Source: Malachius bipustulatus (lineage: Eukaryota > Arthropoda > Insecta > Coleoptera > Melyridae). From it: a DNA stretch of 64,000 bases. Under the pieces are notes generated by a model that worked only from the letters and a program-made list of their open reading frames with translations, had not been told where the DNA came from and did not search any database. The DNA lies in contig OU342630.1 in the NCBI GenBank assembly GCA_910589415.1, forward strand, positions 71,544,186 to 71,608,185, in the 5' to 3' direction. Positions 14,314-33,234 of this stretch are shown piece by piece. Position 1 is the first letter of the stretch; each line of letters opens with the position of its first letter. Made by a program: the position numbers and the translations under genes.

Positions 14314-17300
14314 TTAATCCATGCCTAGGAGTTCGCGGGTTTGTTTGCGGGTTTCTCTAGATATATATTTTTTTATGAGCCTGCTAAAAACTCGCCCAGT
14401 CGATGACGCCCGCAAACTCATTGGTATTCCATTATATACTCTAGGGGCTATGGCTAGATGACATCTCGTTCCTATATCCCTGTTTGACTTAGGGTGTCTC
14501 GAAATCCCACTCTGTTTATTTCTAGTTTCATAGTCATGATCAAATCTATCTAAAAGTTGCCGAGTCTTGAATTGGTAGTTAAGTAAAGTAATAGCGAACA
14601 GTTGACGTATGTCAAACAGTCCAGACTCAGAATACAAGCTATCACTAGGATGTAGTCTGTCTTTATTATACATGATTTTTATGATGCTTCTCTGTAACGA
14701 CTCCAACGGCCGCAGGTATTTTGCCCTTACTCCTCCCCAGGCCAGCACACCGTAGCTCAAATGCGACTCGACCAAAGCATGATACAATATCTTCAGGTGG
14801 GGAATATCCAGAATCATCTTGAACTGTTTAAACTTATAAATTAACCCTCTCAGTTTTGATTTTAAAAATTCAATATGAAAATTCCACCTCAAGTGCGAGT
14901 CAATGACTATGCCAAGGTATTTTACCTTTAAGGATCCGGCTATTGAGAAATTGTTTTCACCATCTGCACAAACAATCTCATGATATGTTGGTAGGTGATT
15001 TTTATAACATGCAAAAGGTACAAAAGTTGTTTTATTCCAGTTTACAGTTAGTGATCTGCTATTGTACCAACATTTAATTTTTTGTAGATCCTCAGTCACC
15101 ATTTTTTTTAAATCTACCCACGAATCTGACTCAAAAAATACAACAGTGTCATCCGCAAACGCAGTGATGGTTCCACTCACCTTAAGATTAAATATATCAT
15201 TTATGAACATATTAAACAGTAGTGGCCCCAACACTGTACCCTGCGGTATGCCACAGGTGACCAATTCAGAAGTACTAAAGCTGTTTCCAATTTTCACCTG
15301 TTGTGTTCTGTTAGATAAATAGCTTTTCATGAGTTTCAGTGCCACTCCTCTGATACCGTATTTTTCTAGAACGTCTAAAAGTAATGAATGGTTAACAGTA
15401 TCAAAGGCTTTAGCTAGGTCTATAAAGACCGCCATTGAACATCTGTTGTTATCCAGCGCATTATAAATTTTACCTGTCAAATCAGTTACTGCGTCTTGAG
15501 TAGATTTGCCTCTTATGAAACCAAATTGACACTGTGACAGAACTTTATTTTTGTTCATGAACTTTATGATCCTAGTGTATATACATTTTTCGTATATCTT
15601 TGCAACATTGCTTATTAATGATATGGGTCTATAATTTGACATGACCTTTTTATCCCCTTGTTTGTATATAGGCGTTACTATACTGTTTTTAAACGATGTC
15701 GGACATACCCCTCTAATCATGGCAAGGTTTATAATGTAGCAAAGAGGTTTTGCTATATAATCGCTAACAACTTTAAGATGTTCAGATTTTATGTTATCAT
15801 TCCCAACTGATTTCCCTGACTTTAGTTCTTGTATATATTTCCTAACCTCTCTCTCATCAACTGGAACCATGTAAACCGATTCTGGCAGTCTTCCCTCTTC
15901 ATCTACGCGGAACTCGCTAGTGGCGAACTCATCTGTCATGGTTCTGCTTATATTTACAAAAAATTCGTTAAAACACCCAGCCATATCCGATCTGTTGGTT
16001 ATTTGTAAGTTGTTCTGTGTTATTATACTCCCTATACTGATTCCCTCTCTTTTCTTCCTGCCGCTAAGTCGATTTGTTACGTCCCACAAGGTCTTAGAGT
16101 TGCGCTCTTTATTTAGTTTTTCTGTATAGTAATTCTTTTTAGCAGTTCTTAGTAGTAATGTTAACCTATTCCGATACTTTTTATAATTTTCGAACAACTC
16201 CAAGTCCTGTGGTTTTCTTTTTACTTCCCTATATAATTTATTTTTCTGTATAACCGACCTAATTTGACCGTTAGTGATCCAGTCTTTTCTTTTTTCAGTG
16301 AATTTTGTTACAATTTTTTTGAAGGAGTTTTCCTTTATAAACTGTTTAATAATTTCTATAGAATTCTCACATGCGATTTCAATATCATCCTCATAAATAA
16401 CACAATGCCAAGTTTCTTTTTTTATTGATTCCACAAATCTGTCCTCGTTAAAGCAATTAATGGCTTTTTTTTCAGGTGATGCCAGTCTAATATTTCCCAA
16501 GTACATCCAAGCCATCACAGAGAAATGATCTGTTATATTGTTTTTAATAATATAAGGTTTACATTTTAACGATGTAGGATCTCCTATATATCTGACAAAT
16601 ATATGATCAATACAAGATTTTTGATCTCTAAACACCCTTGTTTCCCTATTTATAAGTGACAGGAATCCGTTCGAACTCATGATATCAAGATATTCACTTT
16701 TTTCGTCTGTTTCTGATAAGAGATCAATATTTATATCTCCCATCATATACACCACATCGATATTTCTAGGGATACCCTCCAAATAAATATTCAATTGAGT
16801 AATAAACTCGTCAGTATTCAGCGCCGGATTACCCACAAGGCTACCTAGGCTGTAGCCTAGGGGCGCAAAGCTTGGTGGGGCGCCGGAGGCGCCCTTAAAA
16901 TTTGTAAATGTGTAAATGCATAAATACTTAGGTACTAAAAATAATGAAATATACATTTCCGAGTTAGGATAATATAATACCTACCTACTGCCCGCACGTA
17001 GGCGACAAGTTCATATAGGGGCGGCGGGCGGGAGAAAAAAACATCTTAATTCATAACAATAACAAAAATTATCAAAATATCATGATAAAATTAATTACTG
17101 GGTGGGTAGTATAGCCAAGGAGGCGGGGGGGCGCGTGCAGGATCCTGGACAACTTTTCACAATATTACATAATCAGGGCCTTTCTAACCACAGAATTAAT
17201 AGGGCTGTGTAGGCCAGGGGCGCAAGCCTTTTGGTGGCGGATGTTTTTATTGAACTATAATATTTTTTGTGATTATTTATTAGTCATTTAGTTATTATAG

Positions 17301-22145: not shown

Positions 22146-22937
22146 CTCTGAAGGAACCAGGTCTGGGGTACCCGATAAACACCAGGTCAACCACCGTCAT
22201 CAGCGAGACTCTTCACAGGACACAGACATCACTTATTAAAATCAGCCTTATCCTTGTGCGATCCTTGCCGATTTCTTTCAGTGTTCACAATTCTTCAAAG
22301 GAAAAAATCACTCTGCAGCAGGATGGGCACCTAGATCCTAGATCGGCCAATTGGAGGTGCTCAACACCAGCACCAAACACCTGAAGTGGACTTCACGAGC
22401 GACGAGCAGTTCTTCTTGTACCTACGCGAGTTTTATTCTTATTAATGAAGTGAGAAATGAGAATCGTGGACAACTCTCGCAGAGTGGCAAAGCGTAGCTG
22501 AACCTGAGCTTGAGCCTCACAGTGTTAGTGTTATAACTGGAGTGTGGAGTCTGGATCGGCGAGGTAGCAACCAACGGCTGCTGCCGCTAACCAAGACATA
22601 ATTAAAGTCAACAAGGATGGATTGGATGCGTATGCTCAAACCTTAGATCACTTCGTTAAAGCAAACGGAGTGACTTAAAGATGGATATAATTCTTCCTCG
22701 TCATCAACTTGCTCAATTTATCGTATTTCTAGGTAATCAGGTATCTTACATTTATTTTTTATAATAATTACATAATTAATTTTTATTTAATTAAAAAAAT
22801 TATAATAATAATTAATATTCGAGGCTATTATTACCTATGTATCGTTTCTGTAAAAAATTACATTATTTATGTAATTTTTAAAATGCATTTACAAGATTGC
22901 ATATTACGTAATTTTGCTTATGCATTTTTCATTTTAC
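22146..22937. other. Possible 5' UTR/promoter of the signal-peptide exon, then AT-rich DNA
   Basis: 22150-22640 is moderately GC-rich and could be the promoter side of the candidate minus-strand gene. No core promoter element is certain. 22740-22937 is plain AT-rich sequence. Confidence 0.3.
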
Positions 22938-22941
22938 GTAC
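22938..22941 (+). repeat. Left 4-bp TSD of the LTR element
   Basis: GTAC, matching 31051-31054 outside the right LTR. Confidence 0.75.
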
Positions 22942-24385
22942 TGTAACTACGAGACCCCGGGTCGCAGGATCTTTCGCGAAAAGCCACCGTGTGATCTGGT
23001 CGTCTAGTTTCCCTAATTTCTCCTAATGGGACCGCTGTGTTTTCCTACGTTGTGTTTACCGTCGTCTTTACCGTAGTCGCCCCTGCTCTTTGATTGAGGT
23101 ATGCCAGGATTAGTATGGCCGAAACGGATGCGCAAAGAACCTACTGGGATTTTTCTTTTGTTGGAAAAGTGGGGAATTTAACTGAGACTTGTTGTCAACT
23201 GTTGGCTTCCTATCAGATGTTTAAAAGCGAGTGATGAGCGAGAGAATTCGTTTGTAAGGGCGTAAAGTGATGAAGGGCGAGATGGGCTGTGATTTTGCAT
23301 AGAGAGTACAAAAAAATGGAAAGCGAAGAGGGATCCCTTTCATCCATCTTTCAAACTATAATCCATTTCGGATTCCACTCTTTTGCACACCTGTGCTTTC
23401 TTTCTGTTTTTGTTTCGTTTACAGACTACCCGGTATATGCGGGAATGTCTCATTATTTCGTTTCGCTTTTATTTCGGTTACAGACTATCCGGTATATGCG
23501 GGAATGTCTGTGTGGTTAACTATTCAACGATTTTCCTTGCCTAATTTCCTTTTTCTAGTTTCTTTATTTCATTTCAAGCATCTGCTTGAATTAATTAAAG
23601 AAGACAACCATGTTGTTTTCAGACGACCCGGTATATGCGGGAATGTCTGTCTATTACCTATTCAATTTCTCTTACGAAATTATCGTGTATTTTCAACCGG
23701 GAGAAACACCCTGTATGTCTAGCTGCGTCGCCTGTAAGTCTAACGTGAGTTAGACATCGCACCTGCACGGCTGTTGGCATTTCGGTTGCCTATCTATAAT
23801 AGCGGTTCTTGTTCTCGGGGGTGGAGACTCGGGCTGTTTAAGTTGGTTTTTAACTAGCGAGTGGATTCTAGTACGGGGTTGCCATTTCTCTTGAATGTTG
23901 AGTTAGTATCTTTATGAAATCGTTCTTTCCGATTCTCTTTTATTTAATGATTTTATTTTCACAGTTGATTTACCTGGGAGAGGGAATGGTTTCGCCTCTG
24001 TTTATTTTAACTGGGGGAGGGAATTATTTCTCCTCCGTTTATTTTTACTCGTGACCTGCTTGATAACTCATTATTGTTATTTGGTAAACCTTATTTGTTT
24101 ACTTTGGTTTACCCTTTTGATTACCTTTTTGCCCCTGTGGGCTACCTGGCGAAGAATTGAAATGTTGGAATTTTTAGTTTGGTACCTCCTGGAACCGGCA
24201 TATTTGCGGACATCGAGACCAACCATCGATTCCACCGTGTTCCTGGTTTCTACCCCTAACTAGTCAGTACTGATAAAAATGCTGGAATTTGTAATTGGTA
24301 CCTACTGGTGCCGGCTTGGTTTCGGGAATACAATTGTAACGAGACCAGCAATCGCCCCCACCGTGCACAGTATTGCCCTATATAC

Positions 24386-24393
24386 CTGTTGAC
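24386..24393 (+). repeat. Left 8-bp TSD of the nested hAT
   Basis: CTGTTGAC, repeated at 24951-24958; the other LTR has one copy only, at 28800-28807. Confidence 0.93.
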
Positions 24394-24950
24394 TAGGGTT
24401 GCCAACTTTTTTTACAAAATATAAAGTATATTGAGGTCGAAGAAGGGAAATAAACAGTATTTTAGAAAAATGAACAGTATTTTATTTTTTTAATGTTTTG
24501 AACATATATTTCTTAGTGCTTCTCGCACAACTTATCAATTTTGTGTCATTTTTGAAAGCTTCGTAAGCCTCATTACAATTAAATTCAAAATTAAAATAAA
24601 TTAGAAGCTCATTCTTTATTAAATTTATTGATGCTCTATTTCTGTCGTCCCGCCACTTTGCATTCATTACAGAAAAAACTCTTTCTGTAAATGCTGAGGT
24701 GGCGGGAACAGAAAGTAGGTATGAGACAATTAATAGTGATATTTTAAAATTCTTCTGAAGTGTTTACTAACAAATGTCTCCACTTTTGGCCAGTACTCAT
24801 TTCCAGAAAATTTTTGTCTTCAGATAGTTTACTCTAGTGATGTTTGCTGAAAACAGTATTTTGCATACTTTATTTTTGTTCAACAGTAAAAAGTATTATA
24901 TCGTGAAAAACAGTATAATACTGTTTTTAACAGTATAGTTGGGAACCCTA
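24394..24950. mobile_element. hAT deletion derivative, 557 bp, inside one LTR
   Basis: TIRs TAGGGTTGCCAAC...GTTGGGAACCCTA and an 8-bp TSD CTGTTGAC. The uninterrupted second LTR provides the empty site. It retains the 3' end of a transposase gene (24482 to about 24740, minus). Confidence 0.93.
24482..24740 (-). pseudogene. C-terminal fragment of a hAT transposase
   Basis: The minus-strand frame reads SYLLSVPATSAFTERVFSV and then MNAKWRDDRNRASINLIKNE. This is the hAT dimerisation region: (S/T)xAxxERVFS followed by an MN...W.D.RNR stretch. It ends at a stop at 24482. The catalytic DDE domain is missing, so it cannot be active. It shows the nested element descends from an autonomous hAT by internal deletion. 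Confidence 0.85.
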
Positions 24951-26082
24951 CTGTTGACAGTACTGATTGTTATTCTATTGGTTGCAACCTGTTTGTTTTA
25001 CCTTGCCTCTCGAGGCAATGAGTTATTTGATTGGTCATTTGAGTTATTATATTGTCGCTTTGATCAACTGTGAATGTGAAGAGTTTGCTGAATACCTGGT
25101 TTGATTGCACAGGACAATTTTGTCTCTGTTTAAATAGAAGAGCCTCGGAAAAACGATCTTACAATGATACTTTGGTTGCTTGACTTTCTTTCTTGGCTTT
25201 CCCATACTCGAGATTAATTTGAGGTGTTTTGGGTCTTTATTTGTGAATTGCCTATCATGATACTAACTTTATTTTGGTTATTGGATTTCCTGATATGTGA
25301 GGGCGGTTATTACACCTGACAACCTTGCTTTGATTACGCTGTCCTACTCTGAGGGTGCTTTTACCCTGTTGCGATCTATGATTTCCACTTTAAAGAGTTA
25401 TACTCTTGTATTGGTACAACGGAGGTCTTCACCTGGACATCGAGGCGAATCCCTCCCCCAACGTTTGGAAATAGAGTACGTATTCTAACTCCTAATTGGG
25501 TGTTGTAATGGAATTAGTATTTCCTGATAATATTTGCGAATTAACAGAGGCTACATCTGACAACGCTGCCTCGTTCTATCTAGACCTGTACTAACCGGGG
25601 GTGCTCTGCTATGTGATCTTTATTTATGGTGTCATATAATGGCGAGAAACTCCTTTCACTTTCTAAATCGTTTTTAAAGGGACTGCTTCCTGCCTAACCA
25701 TCTGCGCTATTTAAAAACTCGGACTCTTCGAAGAATAGGATGATTGAATCATGGGCCGTTTAGTTTACATTTTAATTCCTGACCTGGGTCTATTTTCGCT
25801 CCTAGCTCTATCTCAATTTCCTATGCGTGAATATGTAATTATTTATTCCTGTTTCCTGCCTAACTTGGTTTATTTCTAATTATTGACGTGATCTCGTAGG
25901 TACCTACTGTGGTGCCGCCTAATACCTAGTTGATTATTGTGTCTGATTTAAAATGGGACCTGCACTCATGGATTGGGCGAATCTGTCTAATTATTTATCG
26001 ATGTGGATTTTGTTGTGAAGAGAGTTTGCCAACTGCGAAGTTTGAGTTGTTTAGAGGAGAGATACAAATTGATATGGGTAAA

Positions 26083-26362
26083 GTTTAGATAAGAATTGGG
26101 CGACCGAGAGTTCACTAAACGCCTTCTCGTCGGGTTTACGTCCAAAGGGTTGGGTTTAGATAAGGATTGGGCGACCGAGAGTTCACTAAACGCCTTCTCG
26201 TCGGGTTTACGTCCAAAGGGTTTGGTTTAGATAAGGATTGGGCGACCGAGAGTTCACTAAACGCCTTCTCGTCGGGTTTACGCCAAAGGGTTTGGTTTAG
26301 ATAAGGATTGGGCGACCGAGAGTTCACTAAACGCCTTCTCGTCGGGTTTACGCCAAAGGGTT
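26083..26362 (+). repeat. Tandem array, 4 x 70-71 bp, in the left LTR
   Basis: Units start at 26083, 26154, 26225 and 26295. Each contains TTGGGCGACCGAGAGTTCAC and GCCTTCTCGTCGGGTTTACG. An open minus-strand frame through it is a by-product of the periodicity. Confidence 0.92.
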
Positions 26363-27201
26363 ATGGAGTCAGACGTGACCTGCTCGAAAGCTGATCTCAT
26401 CTGCCTGGAGCAGCGGCAGGACGTCTGCTTTTATAGAAGCAGTCGCCCGATTTCTAAACACCGCGCAATAATGAACCTTATTGACTCTTCTCTGCTGCCG
26501 TGATTTAGTCCTTAATCGTATTTTCCTGATTACTGGACTTAGCGATTTGACCTCGCGGCTATCTCACTGAATTTTCCTAAACCTGCACTATCTAAATTTT
26601 CCTTCAAATCGGCCGACGCGTTAAGGTACTTCTCATTGTGTCTAGTTATTTTAATTACACCGACACAACTTTCACTTCGCGTTTTCCTTTAATGGCCGTT
26701 TAGGTACCGGGGTGCTTTTCCGGCTATTGGGGTTTATTAATTCGCCCTATCGATTGGTGAACTTTTCATTGTCGTAGGTGTAATAACTACTGAGTTACTT
26801 TTGTCTTTGCGAAGGCTTATTGTTTAAATTCTGATTTCACATTCCTTCACACGGTCTGTTTCTTTCCATCCGTTCTTGTATGTAGGTCACCTATTATTTC
26901 ATCACGCGGACCGACAGTGTCTGCCCTAACATCTGGCAAAGGTTTGCCCTCGCCGTTGCCGCTTTCTCGAAGGACTGAATTGTGGCTAGCTGGAGCGATT
27001 TTGTTTTATGAATATTTAATGTGCTGGCGGGATCATTTACTTGATGTAACGGCGGGTGGCTGCGCTTTGAATTTTCTAACAATTTTACCTTCAGGTATTT
27101 ACGTACCTAATCTCGCACTATTTGCTTTTTCGGTTTGAGCTGATTTAATGAGGCGAAGGAAATAATTTCCTTATAATCCTACCTAGGTGCGATCCATTTC
27201 A

Positions 27202-27355
27202 CCGCCCCCTCGTCTTCAGGCTATCAGAGGGTACCCTGATAGACGGAAGACGCCCCCTAACTCTCCTACTTGGTTTTCGTGTTTTTGGTTTTGGGTTTTC
27301 CTTCTCGGCCAATTTATTCCCGCGTATTAGCCCTCAATCCTGGTCACGGCACCAA
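27202..27355 (-). other. Internal region of the LTR element: PBS, hairpin, PPT
   Basis: In element sense it runs from the primer-binding site (complement of 27338-27355) to the polypurine tract (complement of 27202-27214). Near the latter, GTCTTC...CTATCAG (27211-27231) can pair with CTGATAG...GAAGAC (27235-27251) around GGGTACCC, and CGCCCCCT is repeated directly on both sides. No open frame. Confidence 0.75.
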
Positions 27356-30300
27356 TGTAACTACGAGACCCCGGGTCGCAGGATCTTTCGCGAAAAGCCA
27401 CCGTGTGATCTGGTCGTCTAGTTTCCCTAATTTCTCCTAATGGGACCGCTGTGTTTTCCTACGTTGTGTTTACCGTCGTCTTTACCGTAGTCGCCCCTGC
27501 TCTTTGATTGAGGTATGCCAGGATTAGTATGGCCGAAACGGATGCGCAAAGAACCTACTGGGATTTTTCTTTTGTTGGAAAAGTGGGGAATTTAACTGAG
27601 ACTTGTTGTCAACTGTTGGCTTCCTATCAGATGTTTAAAAGCGAGTGATGAGCGAGAGAATTCGTTTGTAAGGGCGTAAAGTGATGAAGGGCGAGATGGG
27701 CTGTGATTTTGCATAGAGAGTACAAAAAAATGGAAAGCGAAGAGGGATCCCTTTCATCCATCTTTCAAACTATAATCCATTTCGGATTCCACTCTTTTGC
27801 ACACCTGTGCTTTCTTTCTGTTTTTGTTTCGTTTACAGACTACCCGGTATATGCGGGAATGTCTCATTATTTCGTTTCGCTTTTATTTCGGTTACAGACT
27901 ATCCGGTATATGCGGGAATGTCTGTGTGGTTAACTATTCAACGATTTTCCTTGCCTAATTTCCTTTTTCTAGTTTCTTTATTTCATTTCAAGCATCTGCT
28001 TGAATTAATTAAAGAAGACAACCATGTTGTTTTCAGACGACCCGGTATATGCGGGAATGTCTGTCTATTACCTATTCAATTTCTCTTACGAAATTATCGT
28101 GTATTTTCAACCGGGAGAAACACCCTGTATGTCTAGCTGCGTCGCCTGTAAGTCTAACGTGAGTTAGACATCGCACCTGCACGGCTGTTGGCATTTCGGT
28201 TGCCTATCTATAATAGCGGTTCTTGTTCTCGGGGGTGGAGACTCGGGCTGTTTAAGTTGGTTTTTAACTAGCGAGTGGATTCTAGTACGGGGTTGCCATT
28301 TCTCTTGAATGTTGAGTTAGTATCTTTATGAAATCGTTCTTTCCGATTCTCTTTTATTTAATGATTTTATTTTCACAGTTGATTTACCTGGGAGAGGGAA
28401 TGGTTTCGCCTCTGTTTATTTTAACTGGGGGAGGGAATTATTTCTCCTCCGTTTATTTTTACTCGTGACCTGCTTGATAACTCATTATTGTTATTTGGTA
28501 AACCTTATTTGTTTACTTTGGTTTACCCTTTTGATTACCTTTTTGCCCCTGTGGGCTACCTGGCGAAGAATTGAAATGTTGGAATTTTTAGTTTGGTACC
28601 TCCTGGAACCGGCATATTTGCGGACATCGAGACCAACCATCGATTCCACCGTGTTCCTGGTTTCTACCCCTAACTAGTCAGTACTGATAAAAATGCTGGA
28701 ATTTGTAATTGGTACCTACTGGTGCCGGCTTGGTTTCGGGAATACAATTGTAACGAGACCAGCAATCGCCCCCACCGTGCACAGTATTGCCCTATATACC
28801 TGTTGACAGTACTGATTGTTATTCTATTGGTTGCAACCTGTTTGTTTTACCTTGCCTCTCGAGGCAATGAGTTATTTGATTGGTCATTTGAGTTATTATA
28901 TTGTCGCTTTGATCAACTGTGAATGTGAAGAGTTTGCTGAATACCTGGTTTGATTGCACAGGACAATTTTGTCTCTGTTTAAATAGAAGAGCCTCGGAAA
29001 AACGATCTTACAATGATACTTTGGTTGCTTGACTTTCTTTCTTGGCTTTCCCATACTCGAGATTAATTTGAGGTGTTTTGGGTCTTTATTTGTGAATTGC
29101 CTATCATGATACTAACTTTATTTTGGTTATTGGATTTCCTGATATGTGAGGGCGGTTATTACACCTGACAACCTTGCTTTGATTACGCTGTCCTACTCTG
29201 AGGGTGCTTTTACCCTGTTGCGATCTATGATTTCCACTTTAAAGAGTTATACTCTTGTATTGGTACAACGGAGGTCTTCACCTGGACATCGAGGCGAATC
29301 CCTCCCCCAACGTTTGGAAATAGAGTACGTATTCTAACTCCTAATTGGGTGTTGTAATGGAATTAGTATTTCCTGATAATATTTGCGAATTAACAGAGGC
29401 TACATCTGACAACGCTGCCTCGTTCTATCTAGACCTGTACTAACCGGGGGTGCTCTGCTATGTGATCTTTATTTATGGTGTCATATAATGGCGAGAAACT
29501 CCTTTCACTTTCTAAATCGTTTTTAAAGGGACTGCTTCCTGCCTAACCATCTGCGCTATTTAAAAACTCGGACTCTTCGAAGAATAGGATGATTGAATCA
29601 TGGGCCGTTTAGTTTACATTTTAATTCCTGACCTGGGTCTATTTTCGCTCCTAGCTCTATCTCAATTTCCTATGCGTGAATATGTAATTATTTATTCCTG
29701 TTTCCTGCCTAACTTGGTTTATTTCTAATTATTGACGTGATCTCGTAGGTACCTACTGTGGTGCCGCCTAATACCTAGTTGATTATTGTGTCTGATTTAA
29801 AATGGGACCTGCACTCATGGATTGGGCGAATCTGTCTAATTATTTATCGATGTGGATTTTGTTGTGAAGAGAGTTTGCCAACTGCGAAGTTTGAGTTGTT
29901 TAGAGGAGAGATACAAATTGATATGGGTAAAGTTTAGATAAGAATTGGGCGACCGAGAGTTCACTAAACGCCTTCTCGTCGGGTTTACGTCCAAAGGGTT
30001 GGGTTTAGATAAGGATTGGGCGACCGAGAGTTCACTAAACGCCTTCTCGTCGGGTTTACGTCCAAAGGGTTTGGTTTAGATAAGGATTGGGCGACCGAGA
30101 GTTCACTAAACGCCTTCTCGTCGGGTTTACGCCAAAGGGTTTGGTTTAGATAAGGATTGGGCGACCGAGAGTTCACTAAACGCCTTCTCGTCGGGTTTAC
30201 GCCAAAGGGTTATGGAGTCAGACGTGACCTGCTCGAAAGCTGATCTCATCTGCCTGGAGCAGCGGCAGGACGTCTGCTTTTATAGAAGCAGTCGCCCGAT

Positions 30301-31050
30301 TTCTAAACACCGCGCAATAATGAACCTTATTGACTCTTCTCTGCTGCCGTGATTTAGTCCTTAATCGTATTTTCCTGATTACTGGACTTAGCGATTTGAC
30401 CTCGCGGCTATCTCACTGAATTTTCCTAAACCTGCACTATCTAAATTTTCCTTCAAATCGGCCGACGCGTTAAGGTACTTCTCATTGTGTCTAGTTATTT
30501 TAATTACACCGACACAACTTTCACTTCGCGTTTTCCTTTAATGGCCGTTTAGGTACCGGGGTGCTTTTCCGGCTATTGGGGTTTATTAATTCGCCCTATC
30601 GATTGGTGAACTTTTCATTGTCGTAGGTGTAATAACTACTGAGTTACTTTTGTCTTTGCGAAGGCTTATTGTTTAAATTCTGATTTCACATTCCTTCACA
30701 CGGTCTGTTTCTTTCCATCCGTTCTTGTATGTAGGTCACCTATTATTTCATCACGCGGACCGACAGTGTCTGCCCTAACATCTGGCAAAGGTTTGCCCTC
30801 GCCGTTGCCGCTTTCTCGAAGGACTGAATTGTGGCTAGCTGGAGCGATTTTGTTTTATGAATATTTAATGTGCTGGCGGGATCATTTACTTGATGTAACG
30901 GCGGGTGGCTGCGCTTTGAATTTTCTAACAATTTTACCTTCAGGTATTTACGTACCTAATCTCGCACTATTTGCTTTTTCGGTTTGAGCTGATTTAATGA
31001 GGCGAAGGAAATAATTTCCTTATAATCCTACCTAGGTGCGATCCATTTCA
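27356..31050 (-). repeat. LTR, plus-right copy (5' LTR in element sense), 3695 bp
   Basis: Uninterrupted copy. It carries the same three hairpins (27837-27864, 27896-27923, 28035-28062). In element sense it reads TGAAATGGATCG...GTAGTTACA. Promoter and poly(A) signals could not be fixed. Confidence 0.88.
29932..30211 (+). repeat. Tandem array, 4 x 70-71 bp, in the right LTR
   Basis: Counterpart of 26083-26362, same unit number and lengths. Confidence 0.92.
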
Positions 31051-31054
31051 GTAC

Positions 31055-31429
31055 CTAAGTGCAATTTTTTACATAAAAGATATATCATACCGATTATCAT
31101 GCAAATTTAAACTACATTTTTTGTTCTTATACTCTGATTGTTACGCAGGTGAAATAGTTATTTACGTTCCAAGAGTATCTTCCGTATTTTCCTAGAATTT
31201 TCCTAGAAATTTCCTAGAACAAAAAGTTGTGAAAGTATAACCAATTTTGACGAACAGCTTCCGGGGGATCTGGGGGCATACGGAGTACCTCCTAGAGAAA
31301 AGGAGGGGTCCGGGGGAGGACGTTCTTATCCGGATTTTTTTCAGAAAAATTGTGTAAAATAGTATAGGTACTGCGTATTCGTATTTTTAATAAGGTATTT
31401 CGGTTTCTTTCGCATCAGCTGCCCTTTTC
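31055..31429. other. Non-coding with a G-rich block
   Basis: 31258-31325 has runs CCGGGGGATCTGGGGGC and CCGGGGGAGG around ATACGGAGTA. It is homologous, in inverse orientation, to about 17918-17990 inside the hAT element. Confidence 0.55.
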
Positions 31430-31513
31430 TTTATTTTTTTCTGCTTTATTGGATTTAGACTAAAAAACCTGCAAAAAAAATCTCACAGGTTGATATGTGA
31501 GAAGGAGTGCAAA
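31430..31513 (+). repeat. Half copy of the CTGC(C/T)TTA-TTGGAT repeat
   Basis: CTGCTTTATTGGATTTAGAC and the ACAGGTTGATATGTGA-type stretch match 32980-33050 directly and 33145-33234 inversely. Confidence 0.6.
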
Positions 31514-32971: not shown

Positions 32972-33234
32972 TTTGTTTTTCTGCCTTACTGGATCTAAAC
33001 TCAAAAAAACCGTCAACAAATTTTCTACAGGTTGATATATGAAGGCGTGCAATCCAGGATTTGAAAATCGTCTCGAGGTAAGCAGCAATAAGCTTCAAAA
33101 TTTGATAATTAAATTTTTTTTTGAAAAACGGTGGTACGAAAACTATGTAGTGATTTTGCACGTCTTCATATCACCCTGTAGAAAATTTGTTGATGTTTTT
33201 TTTTAGTTTAGATCCAATAAAGCAGAAAAATTAA
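32972..33234. mobile_element. Foldback MITE, about 260 bp
   Basis: Arms pair: CTTACTGGATCTAAAC (32985) with GTTTAGATCCAATAAAG (about 33207), and CAACAAATTTTCTACAGG with its complement around 33175-33190, whose CACCCTGTAG resembles the TACAGGGTG termini. Non-coding. Confidence 0.65.

Follow-up and report, generated by a model that had tools for sequence, protein, structure and literature searches.

A gene-less retrotransposon family with giant terminal repeats around a 154-bp interior in the beetle Malachius bipustulatus

The window analysed here is a stretch of 64,000 nucleotides from contig OU342630.1 of the beetle Malachius bipustulatus (assembly GCA_910589415.1, positions 71,544,186 to 71,608,185 of the forward strand), and its positions 22942-31050 are occupied by one long terminal repeat (LTR) element on the minus strand, a member of a recently active beetle retrotransposon family. 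A first-pass annotation, made from the sequence alone, had described giant 3.7-kb LTRs around only 154 bp, and this is borne out both by the sequence and by BLAST comparison of the two repeats (22942-27201 and 27356-31050), which align with 0 mismatches over 1,452 and 2,251 bp. Each LTR is 3,695 bp long and the two are identical outside a nested insert of 557 bp, by which the left one is longer. The exact arithmetic offered earlier (4260 - 557 - 8 = 3695) holds, as the insert (24394-24950), sitting between copies of CTGTTGAC that form an 8-bp target-site duplication (TSD), accounts for the excess. Being found in one LTR only, the insert is younger than the insertion of its host element, and we take it to be a hAT-like miniature inverted-repeat transposable element (MITE) on the grounds of its 8-bp TSD and short terminal inverted repeats, traits typical of that family. 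When it is subtracted, the element measures about 7.5 kb.

The TG...CA borders and the 4-bp TSD reported for the element are both present, the duplicated GTAC lying at 22938-22941 and 31051-31054. The proposed tRNA-complementary primer-binding site (PBS) is TGGTGCCGTGACCAGGAT, 18 nt at 27354-27337 and one base away from the 5' LTR, and it is complementary to a tRNA-His(GTG) 3' end, as encoded by the gene with CCA added; the 22-nt 3' end of this tRNA has 9 exact copies in the genome, and at the one locus fetched ARAGORN calls tRNA-His. A polypurine-like tract does precede the 3' LTR, although it is weaker than had been stated, being short and having its purines broken by one C (GAGGGGGCGG). Direct LTRs with TG...CA ends, a TSD, a PBS by the 5' LTR and a (short) purine tract by the 3' LTR, together with the dispersed copies, solo LTRs and empty sites described below, mark the element as an LTR retrotransposon. 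The longest listed open reading frame (ORF) that overlaps it has 109 aa and lies on the opposite strand. As no listed ORF above this length overlaps the element, a gag-pol in the order protease, reverse transcriptase (RT), RNase H and integrase is absent from it, and it can only be a derivative of Ty3/Gypsy. Searches of the element against Rfam for known RNAs gave three matches, all under the cut-off, and no match to tRNA or 5S RNA at E up to 0.5.

The COX1 carried by the assembly is 96% identical to that of 'Malachiinae sp.', further cleroid beetles ranking next among the matches listed. The assembly of 544,256,285 bases in 52 contigs was searched for relatives, and 46 loci of the window family (given below, like other loci, by L numbers) were read, most in part. 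With the 154-bp interior as query 64 candidates were obtained, and the 40 that were scored, the window copy included, all match over about their full length at 97-100% identity (40/40), ten of them at 100%; the divergent interiors L053, L054, L057 and L061 plus L091 bring the confirmed interiors to 45. Exact matches to the 22-nt LTR start number 987 in the genome, against 0 for a reversed control, which excludes chance. The further copies that the first-pass annotation had called for are thus plentiful, and their dispersal rules out a single-locus curiosity. Among the first 100 of the 987 starts there are 7 same-strand pairs 3.7-5.0 kb apart (14 starts) and 86 unpaired starts, of which at least one, next to L054, is part of a copy that does have its interior. 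Twenty loci were fetched at 10 kb, picked from the best LTR matches with pairs first and not at random, and comprise 6 full copies and 14 loci without an interior. An exact 4-bp TSD flanks all three full copies with both ends in view (the window copy, L012 and L014) and 13 of the 14 single LTRs, L020 being counted by allowing one deleted base in its LTR start, while the TSD of the solo LTR at L023 agrees at 3 of 4 bases; at L009, L010, L011 and L013 the outer 5' end lies outside the fetched stretch. The TSDs are centred on TA in 13/16 loci of the family (L023 omitted; p ~8e-12, with TA making up 8.8% in the window).

Flanks of 800 bp (21 right and 17 left, from 21 loci) gave no match to one another, which argues for independent insertions. 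When the flanks of the window element are joined so that a single GTAC is left between them, the junction is spanned by 46 of 50 reported matches (73-89% identity; 92 candidates, the best 40 of them scored), which reveals the site empty in other copies of the repeat. The remaining four places comprise the two flanks of the element, a match of the left flank to itself in inverted orientation and a match that ends short, and the 46 junction matches correspond to 37 distinct loci, nine being counted twice because the repeat is palindromic. The landing site itself (about 22870-22941 and 31055-31100) is a ~110-bp palindromic repeat with many copies in the genome.

From its near-identical LTR pairs the family is recently active. 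Apart from the window pair (100% outside the insert), identity is 99.97% at L012 (3,801 bp) and 99.79% at L014 (3,733 bp); over the partial overlaps available at four further loci it is 100% at L009 (1,280 bp), 99.93% at L010 (3,010 bp), 99.87% at L011 (3,133 bp) and 100% at L013 (3,426 bp), so that all 7/7 compared pairs lie between 99.79 and 100%. The 3' LTR is 3,616-4,260 bp long in 7/7 full copies when the window copy is counted with its insert, and 3.6-4.2 kb without it. The features of the window copy are collected in Table 1.

Table 1. Features of the giant-LTR element and its borders, in window coordinates.
Feature	Position	Strand	Basis
Target-site duplication GTAC, left	22938..22941	.	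sequence
3' LTR (minus-strand sense), 3,695 bp + later 565-bp insertion (557 bp + 8-bp TSD)	22942..27201	-	BLAST
27-nt hypervariable tract, 3' LTR	22949..22975	-	comparison between copies
8-bp TSD CTGTTGAC of nested insert, left copy	24386..24393	.	sequence, BLAST
557-bp nested hAT-like MITE, ends TAGGGTTGCCAAC ... GTTGGGAACCCTA	24394..24950	.	sequence, BLAST
8-bp TSD CTGTTGAC of nested insert, right copy	24951..24958	.	sequence, BLAST
Four tandem repeats of 71 bp within 3' LTR	26083..26362	.	
Conserved LTR start TGAAATGGATCGCACCTAGGTA, 3' LTR	27180..27201	-	987 exact genome sites
Polypurine-like tract GAGGGGGCGG adjoining 3' LTR	27202..27211	-	sequence
56-nt hairpin-forming stretch with palindrome GGTACC	27202..27257	-	folding vs shuffles; copies compared
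Noncoding interior, 154 bp	27202..27355	-	sequence, ORF list, copies
PBS complementary to tRNA-His 3' end	27337..27354	-	sequence comparison with tRNA gene
5' LTR (minus-strand sense), 3,695 bp	27356..31050	-	BLAST
27-nt hypervariable tract of 5' LTR, 7 nt from LTR end	27363..27389	-	comparison between copies
Four tandem repeats of 71 bp within 5' LTR	29932..30211	.	
Conserved LTR start, 5' LTR	31029..31050	-	genome sites
Target-site duplication GTAC, right	31051..31054	.	sequence

Conservation is much stronger in the interior than in the LTRs around it. Among 27 copies mean pairwise identity is 98.7% in the interior and 90.3% in the last 230 bp of the LTR, as compared with 65.0% in the first 230 bp of the LTR, where large indels occur. 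The length of the interior is 153-156 bp in 32/32 copies read, and its last 56 nt are identical in 20/32; the others vary at four places, with T to C inside CTATCAG in 4 copies, A to G inside GGTACC in 3, T to G right after GGTACCC in 5 and a change of the first G to A in 1, a copy that also has the T to G. The contrast between a conserved core and mosaic LTRs suggests cis signals for priming, packaging and the start of the second strand in the core, and an exchange of LTRs between RNAs that are copied together. Alternatively, the conserved cores could reflect recent common descent, which would look similar. The 56-nt stretch, with its palindrome GGTACC, may form a hairpin and is a candidate signal for dimerisation or packaging, dimerisation being only a lead. 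Its folding gives reasons for caution: it folds only mildly better than shuffles (z -1.81, and -1.6 to -1.8 for the last 56-61 nt), two hairpins of -24.8 and -22.8 kcal/mol compete, shuffled versions of the whole interior fold as well as the interior does (z +0.21), and in 4/32 copies a base change undoes a pair in the CTATCAG/CTGATAG stem. Placing GGTACC at the tip of one hairpin was rejected, as the competing fold, better by 2 kcal/mol, places it elsewhere.

The PBS occurs beyond this family. Exact tRNA-His sites (TACA-N-PBS) number 91 in the genome and belong to several families. A second form of the PBS (TGGTGCCAGCGACCAGGAT; ...CAGCGACCAGGAT) is found at 24 places, namely at L013, L047, L048 and 21 more, and 16 of the 24 are known interiors of the window family; at the single site fetched for the variant CAGCGACCAGGAT no matching tRNA gene was found, that site proving to be another interior (L091). 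Clusters of tRNA-His PBS with a spacing of ~145-530 bp occur at L068, C7:35204987-35206354 and C4:43985555-43986016 and are possibly short elements in tandem.

Twenty loci were read among the 91 exact sites. At L050 and L052 the tRNA-His PBS leads into a gag-like ORF, for which the Pfam matches at L050 are below the cut-off (E 0.02-0.03), and L070 extends the element of L050 with an open pol of 1,174 codons containing G-patch, protease, RT, RNase H and integrase. In this one copy the order is RVP 98-201, RVT_1 350-510, RNaseH 598-702, H2C2 810-867 and rve 886-977, and as protease, RT, RNase H and integrase stand in this order the L050 family belongs to Ty3/Gypsy. Over the RT region its pol is 59-60% identical to two Tribolium castaneum proteins among the listed named relatives. 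By paired match coordinates six copies are full, their LTRs measuring ~2.76-3.87 kb, their interiors ~5.45 kb and the element in total ~12.5 kb. Exact 4-bp TSDs are found at 8/8 loci with both ends fetched (6 full, 2 solo) and are TA-centred in 5/8 (p ~2e-4). The LTRs begin with TGAAATGGACCACACCCAGG, and the first 40 bp of the LTRs of the window element and the L050 family align with a score of 46, against a shuffled maximum of 22. Because of this shared LTR start and the 4-bp TA-centred TSDs, the two families probably share one integrase or have closely similar ones, and, with the tRNA-His PBS of L050 and L052 as a further common feature, the L050 family is the best candidate helper for the window element. 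The autonomous partner with the same LTR plus gag-pol that the first-pass annotation had proposed to look for is therefore found in part, as a gag-pol family with giant LTRs whose LTR body differs. On the minus strand of L070, pol is also followed by an open frame of 258 codons rich in proline, and a hydrophobic one of 91 codons lies where the giant LTR starts.

Several observations weigh against this pairing. The last 100 bp of the two LTRs align with a score of 22, below the shuffled maximum of 29, the LTR parts compared beyond the first 40 bp show no match to the L050 family, and neither does the middle of the interior of the window element. In addition, the tRNA-His PBS is present in only 2/6 full L050-family copies (L050 and L052); the other 4/6 (L073, L075, L079 and L081) have different sequence after TTGGTGCCGT and the PBS TTGGTGCCGTTGACGTGCGGAT, so that tRNA-His use is not uniform in the family. 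Other tRNA-His families also exist in the genome and were partly examined. A likeness between the LTR ends of the window element and the L050 family, good by eye, failed to beat shuffles and was not used.

Weighing both sides, we hold with a probability of roughly 85% that this is a gene-less giant-LTR family moved in trans by the enzymes of a related Gypsy element, with the L050 family as the best candidate. In such a cycle a full-length transcript would be driven by the 5' LTR, tRNA-His would prime first-strand synthesis at the observed PBS, and the RNA would be packaged by the Gag of the related autonomous element via the core, perhaps the hairpin, and possibly LTR sequence. The RT and integrase of the helper would then recognise the shared LTR start and end and copy the element, and the presumed helper enzyme would insert it with the observed 4-bp TSD, mostly at NTAN targets. 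Finally, the 3.7-kb repeats 154 bp apart could recombine into solo LTRs, a step proposed because single LTRs with intact TSDs are in excess.

The same kind of element could also be mobilised by another tRNA-His-primed Gypsy family of this genome, a possibility to which we give distinctly less weight than an even chance. The 91 exact sites span several other families, L064 holds a 215-codon open frame, gag-like by eye (without a Pfam match), and the differing LTR bodies of the window and L050 families fit such a helper as well. Among the loci read, however, the L050 family alone has TA-centred 4-bp TSDs and the TGAAATGGA start together with giant LTRs and an open pol; L055 holds no gag-pol in the 4 kb beginning ~0.9 kb past its PBS, and at C1:12.39-12.40 Mb, where two LTRs might form a long-spaced pair, the 2 kb read contain neither an LTR nor a PBS nor a large ORF. 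The exact repeat identity in the window could also have come from a duplication, segmental (as the first-pass annotation had warned) or tandem, or from an assembly that collapsed a longer interior, the other danger named there. This reading is in practice discounted, as it is opposed by the TSDs, the unrelated flanks, 32/32 interiors of 153-156 bp at dispersed loci and the uninterrupted paralogous sites, and the assembly carries the ~5.45-kb interiors of the related family at 6 loci.

A second pattern concerns the end of the LTR. Reading through an anchor motif gave 51 LTR ends (L054 and L061, whose anchor differs, were dropped), and the last 34 nt are constant in length in 49/51. With one tail per locus, 43 loci, less L024 and L034, yielded 41 tails of 34 nt, among which there are 36 distinct 27-nt tracts. 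Diversity is 0.332 in this tract, as against 0.077 in the preceding 200 columns (0.117 in the top 27-column window) and 0.068 in the last 7 nt, and in 15 pairs of loci that are <0.5% apart upstream the tails differ on average at 5.5 of 27 positions (range 0 to 13). All four combinations are seen in 130/136 site pairs of the tail. As some copies share tails, tails must also be inherited or exchanged.

Perhaps the priming of the first strand by tRNA-His is prone to error in this family, whether by design or by circumstance, and the ~27-nt tract, 7 nt from the LTR edge and beside the PBS, is rewritten by template switching and miscopying around many rounds of retrotransposition, with other element RNAs or the 5' half of the primer tRNA as switch targets and the core staying near-constant; this we put forward tentatively, as an idea that is rather doubtful as it stands. 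Alternatively, the tail could be kept diverse by selection (e.g. escape from small RNAs or a repressor) or stem from an old variant pool shuffled by recombination. Invariant positions are interspersed among saturated ones, tail length is fixed in 49/51, and the same tail is met again in copies whose LTRs differ (L009, L012 and L028); because of this recurrence we rate selection or an old pool a little higher than rewriting at priming, at somewhat short of an even chance. What speaks against them is first of all L014 (LTR ends 4061 and 7961, sense coordinates), the two LTRs of which differ at 12/27 positions of the tail, while their alignment of 3,733 otherwise shows 7 mismatches and a single gap (~99.8% identity); both tails agree in the six other full copies. 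In L034 (last 44 nt of its LTR, where the inner end alone was read) the tail has been replaced by nt 1-30 of tRNA-His, exact and in sense orientation, beside the tRNA-His PBS. Changes in the tail are also mostly transversions (203/276), compared with half upstream (188/374), and the tails of the L050 family are almost invariant in the copies read.

Woot, a Ty3/Gypsy element of Tribolium castaneum reportedly described by Beeman et al. in 1996, is said to have 3.6-kb LTRs and a 5.0-kb interior and to encode gag-pol. It resembles the L050 family as a beetle Gypsy element with giant LTRs and, going by these reported figures, similar sizes, and differs by its reported gag-pol from the window element with no genes and a 154-bp interior. 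A parallel in structure is offered by terminal-repeat retrotransposons in miniature (TRIMs), which according to excerpts of PMC3532108 measure <~1 kb with LTRs of 100-350 bp. PbTRIM of the harvester ant, described there, shares with the window element two LTRs, a PBS, a purine tract, a noncoding interior and a 4-bp TSD. While the window element has the noncoding interior with PBS and purine tract of a TRIM, its family differs in size, with LTRs of 3.6-4.2 kb and, in the window copy without its insert, a total of ~7.5 kb, and 7/7 full copies lie outside the dimensions given in those excerpts. Large retrotransposon derivatives (LARDs), with ~4.4-kb LTRs, a ~3.5-kb noncoding interior and no protein-coding capacity in the same excerpts, are of the same order in their LTRs and likewise non-coding, whereas the interior of 154 bp (153-156 bp in 32/32) is ~23 times shorter. 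The element thus works like a TRIM or LARD and fits neither, being too large for the one and too short in its interior for the other. The non-autonomous LTR element of unusual size class that had been postulated is supported, the tests proposed to refute it having failed to do so.

In plants, larger relatives of TRIMs with similar LTR sizes and 79-98% LTR identity are mentioned in the consulted part of Gao et al. (PMC4717578); here the L050-family relative is similar in LTR size and unlike in LTR body. The tRNA- or 5S-derived LTR sequence given as a family trait of TRIMp3 (Helenus, Ajax, Cassandra) in the consulted part of PMC10886601 is absent from the window element by Rfam, and tRNA-His sequence is found in L034 only. 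Among the literature matches listed (titles and abstract openings, most subscription papers lying outside this set), none is a giant-LTR element with a comparably short interior.

A true TRIM is also present in the same genome, with an LTR of ~100 bp by eye, an interior of 127 bp and 5 complete copies (L051, L059, C3:54800692, C3:33684584 and C3:50195628). It has in common with the window family the tRNA-His PBS, the same one-base gap, the LTR end GTTACA, GACGATCA in the LTR and, ahead of the 3' LTR, an inverted repeat rich in G, the fold of which is not significantly stable (z -0.95 and -0.72). It differs by an LTR ~35 times shorter and an unrelated start, TGTAATATTCTAC. On this comparison LTRs as unlike in size as 0.1 and 3.7 kb may be carried along by small cores of a similar kind.

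Elsewhere in the window, an 880-aa ORF with RVT_1 lies on the minus strand at 14314-16956 and has relatives in Callosobruchus and elsewhere; as several of these carry an endonuclease domain, it is probably a non-LTR element. Imperfect inverted repeats are found beyond the giant-LTR element at 32976-33230 and 31425-31467.

The family indicates that an interior of ~150 bp is enough in an animal Gypsy-type lineage. Lack of genes in the core does not have to go with short LTRs, and the LTRs are accordingly worth searching for the remaining cis signals. With 3.7 kb of homology separated by 154 bp, the element is also a natural extreme for solo-LTR formation. If the rewriting of the tail were true, insertions would often carry their own tag, and if it is priming that makes the tail variable, natural insertions would preserve the mistakes made as tRNA-primed synthesis starts, a step that could then be tested from genomes.

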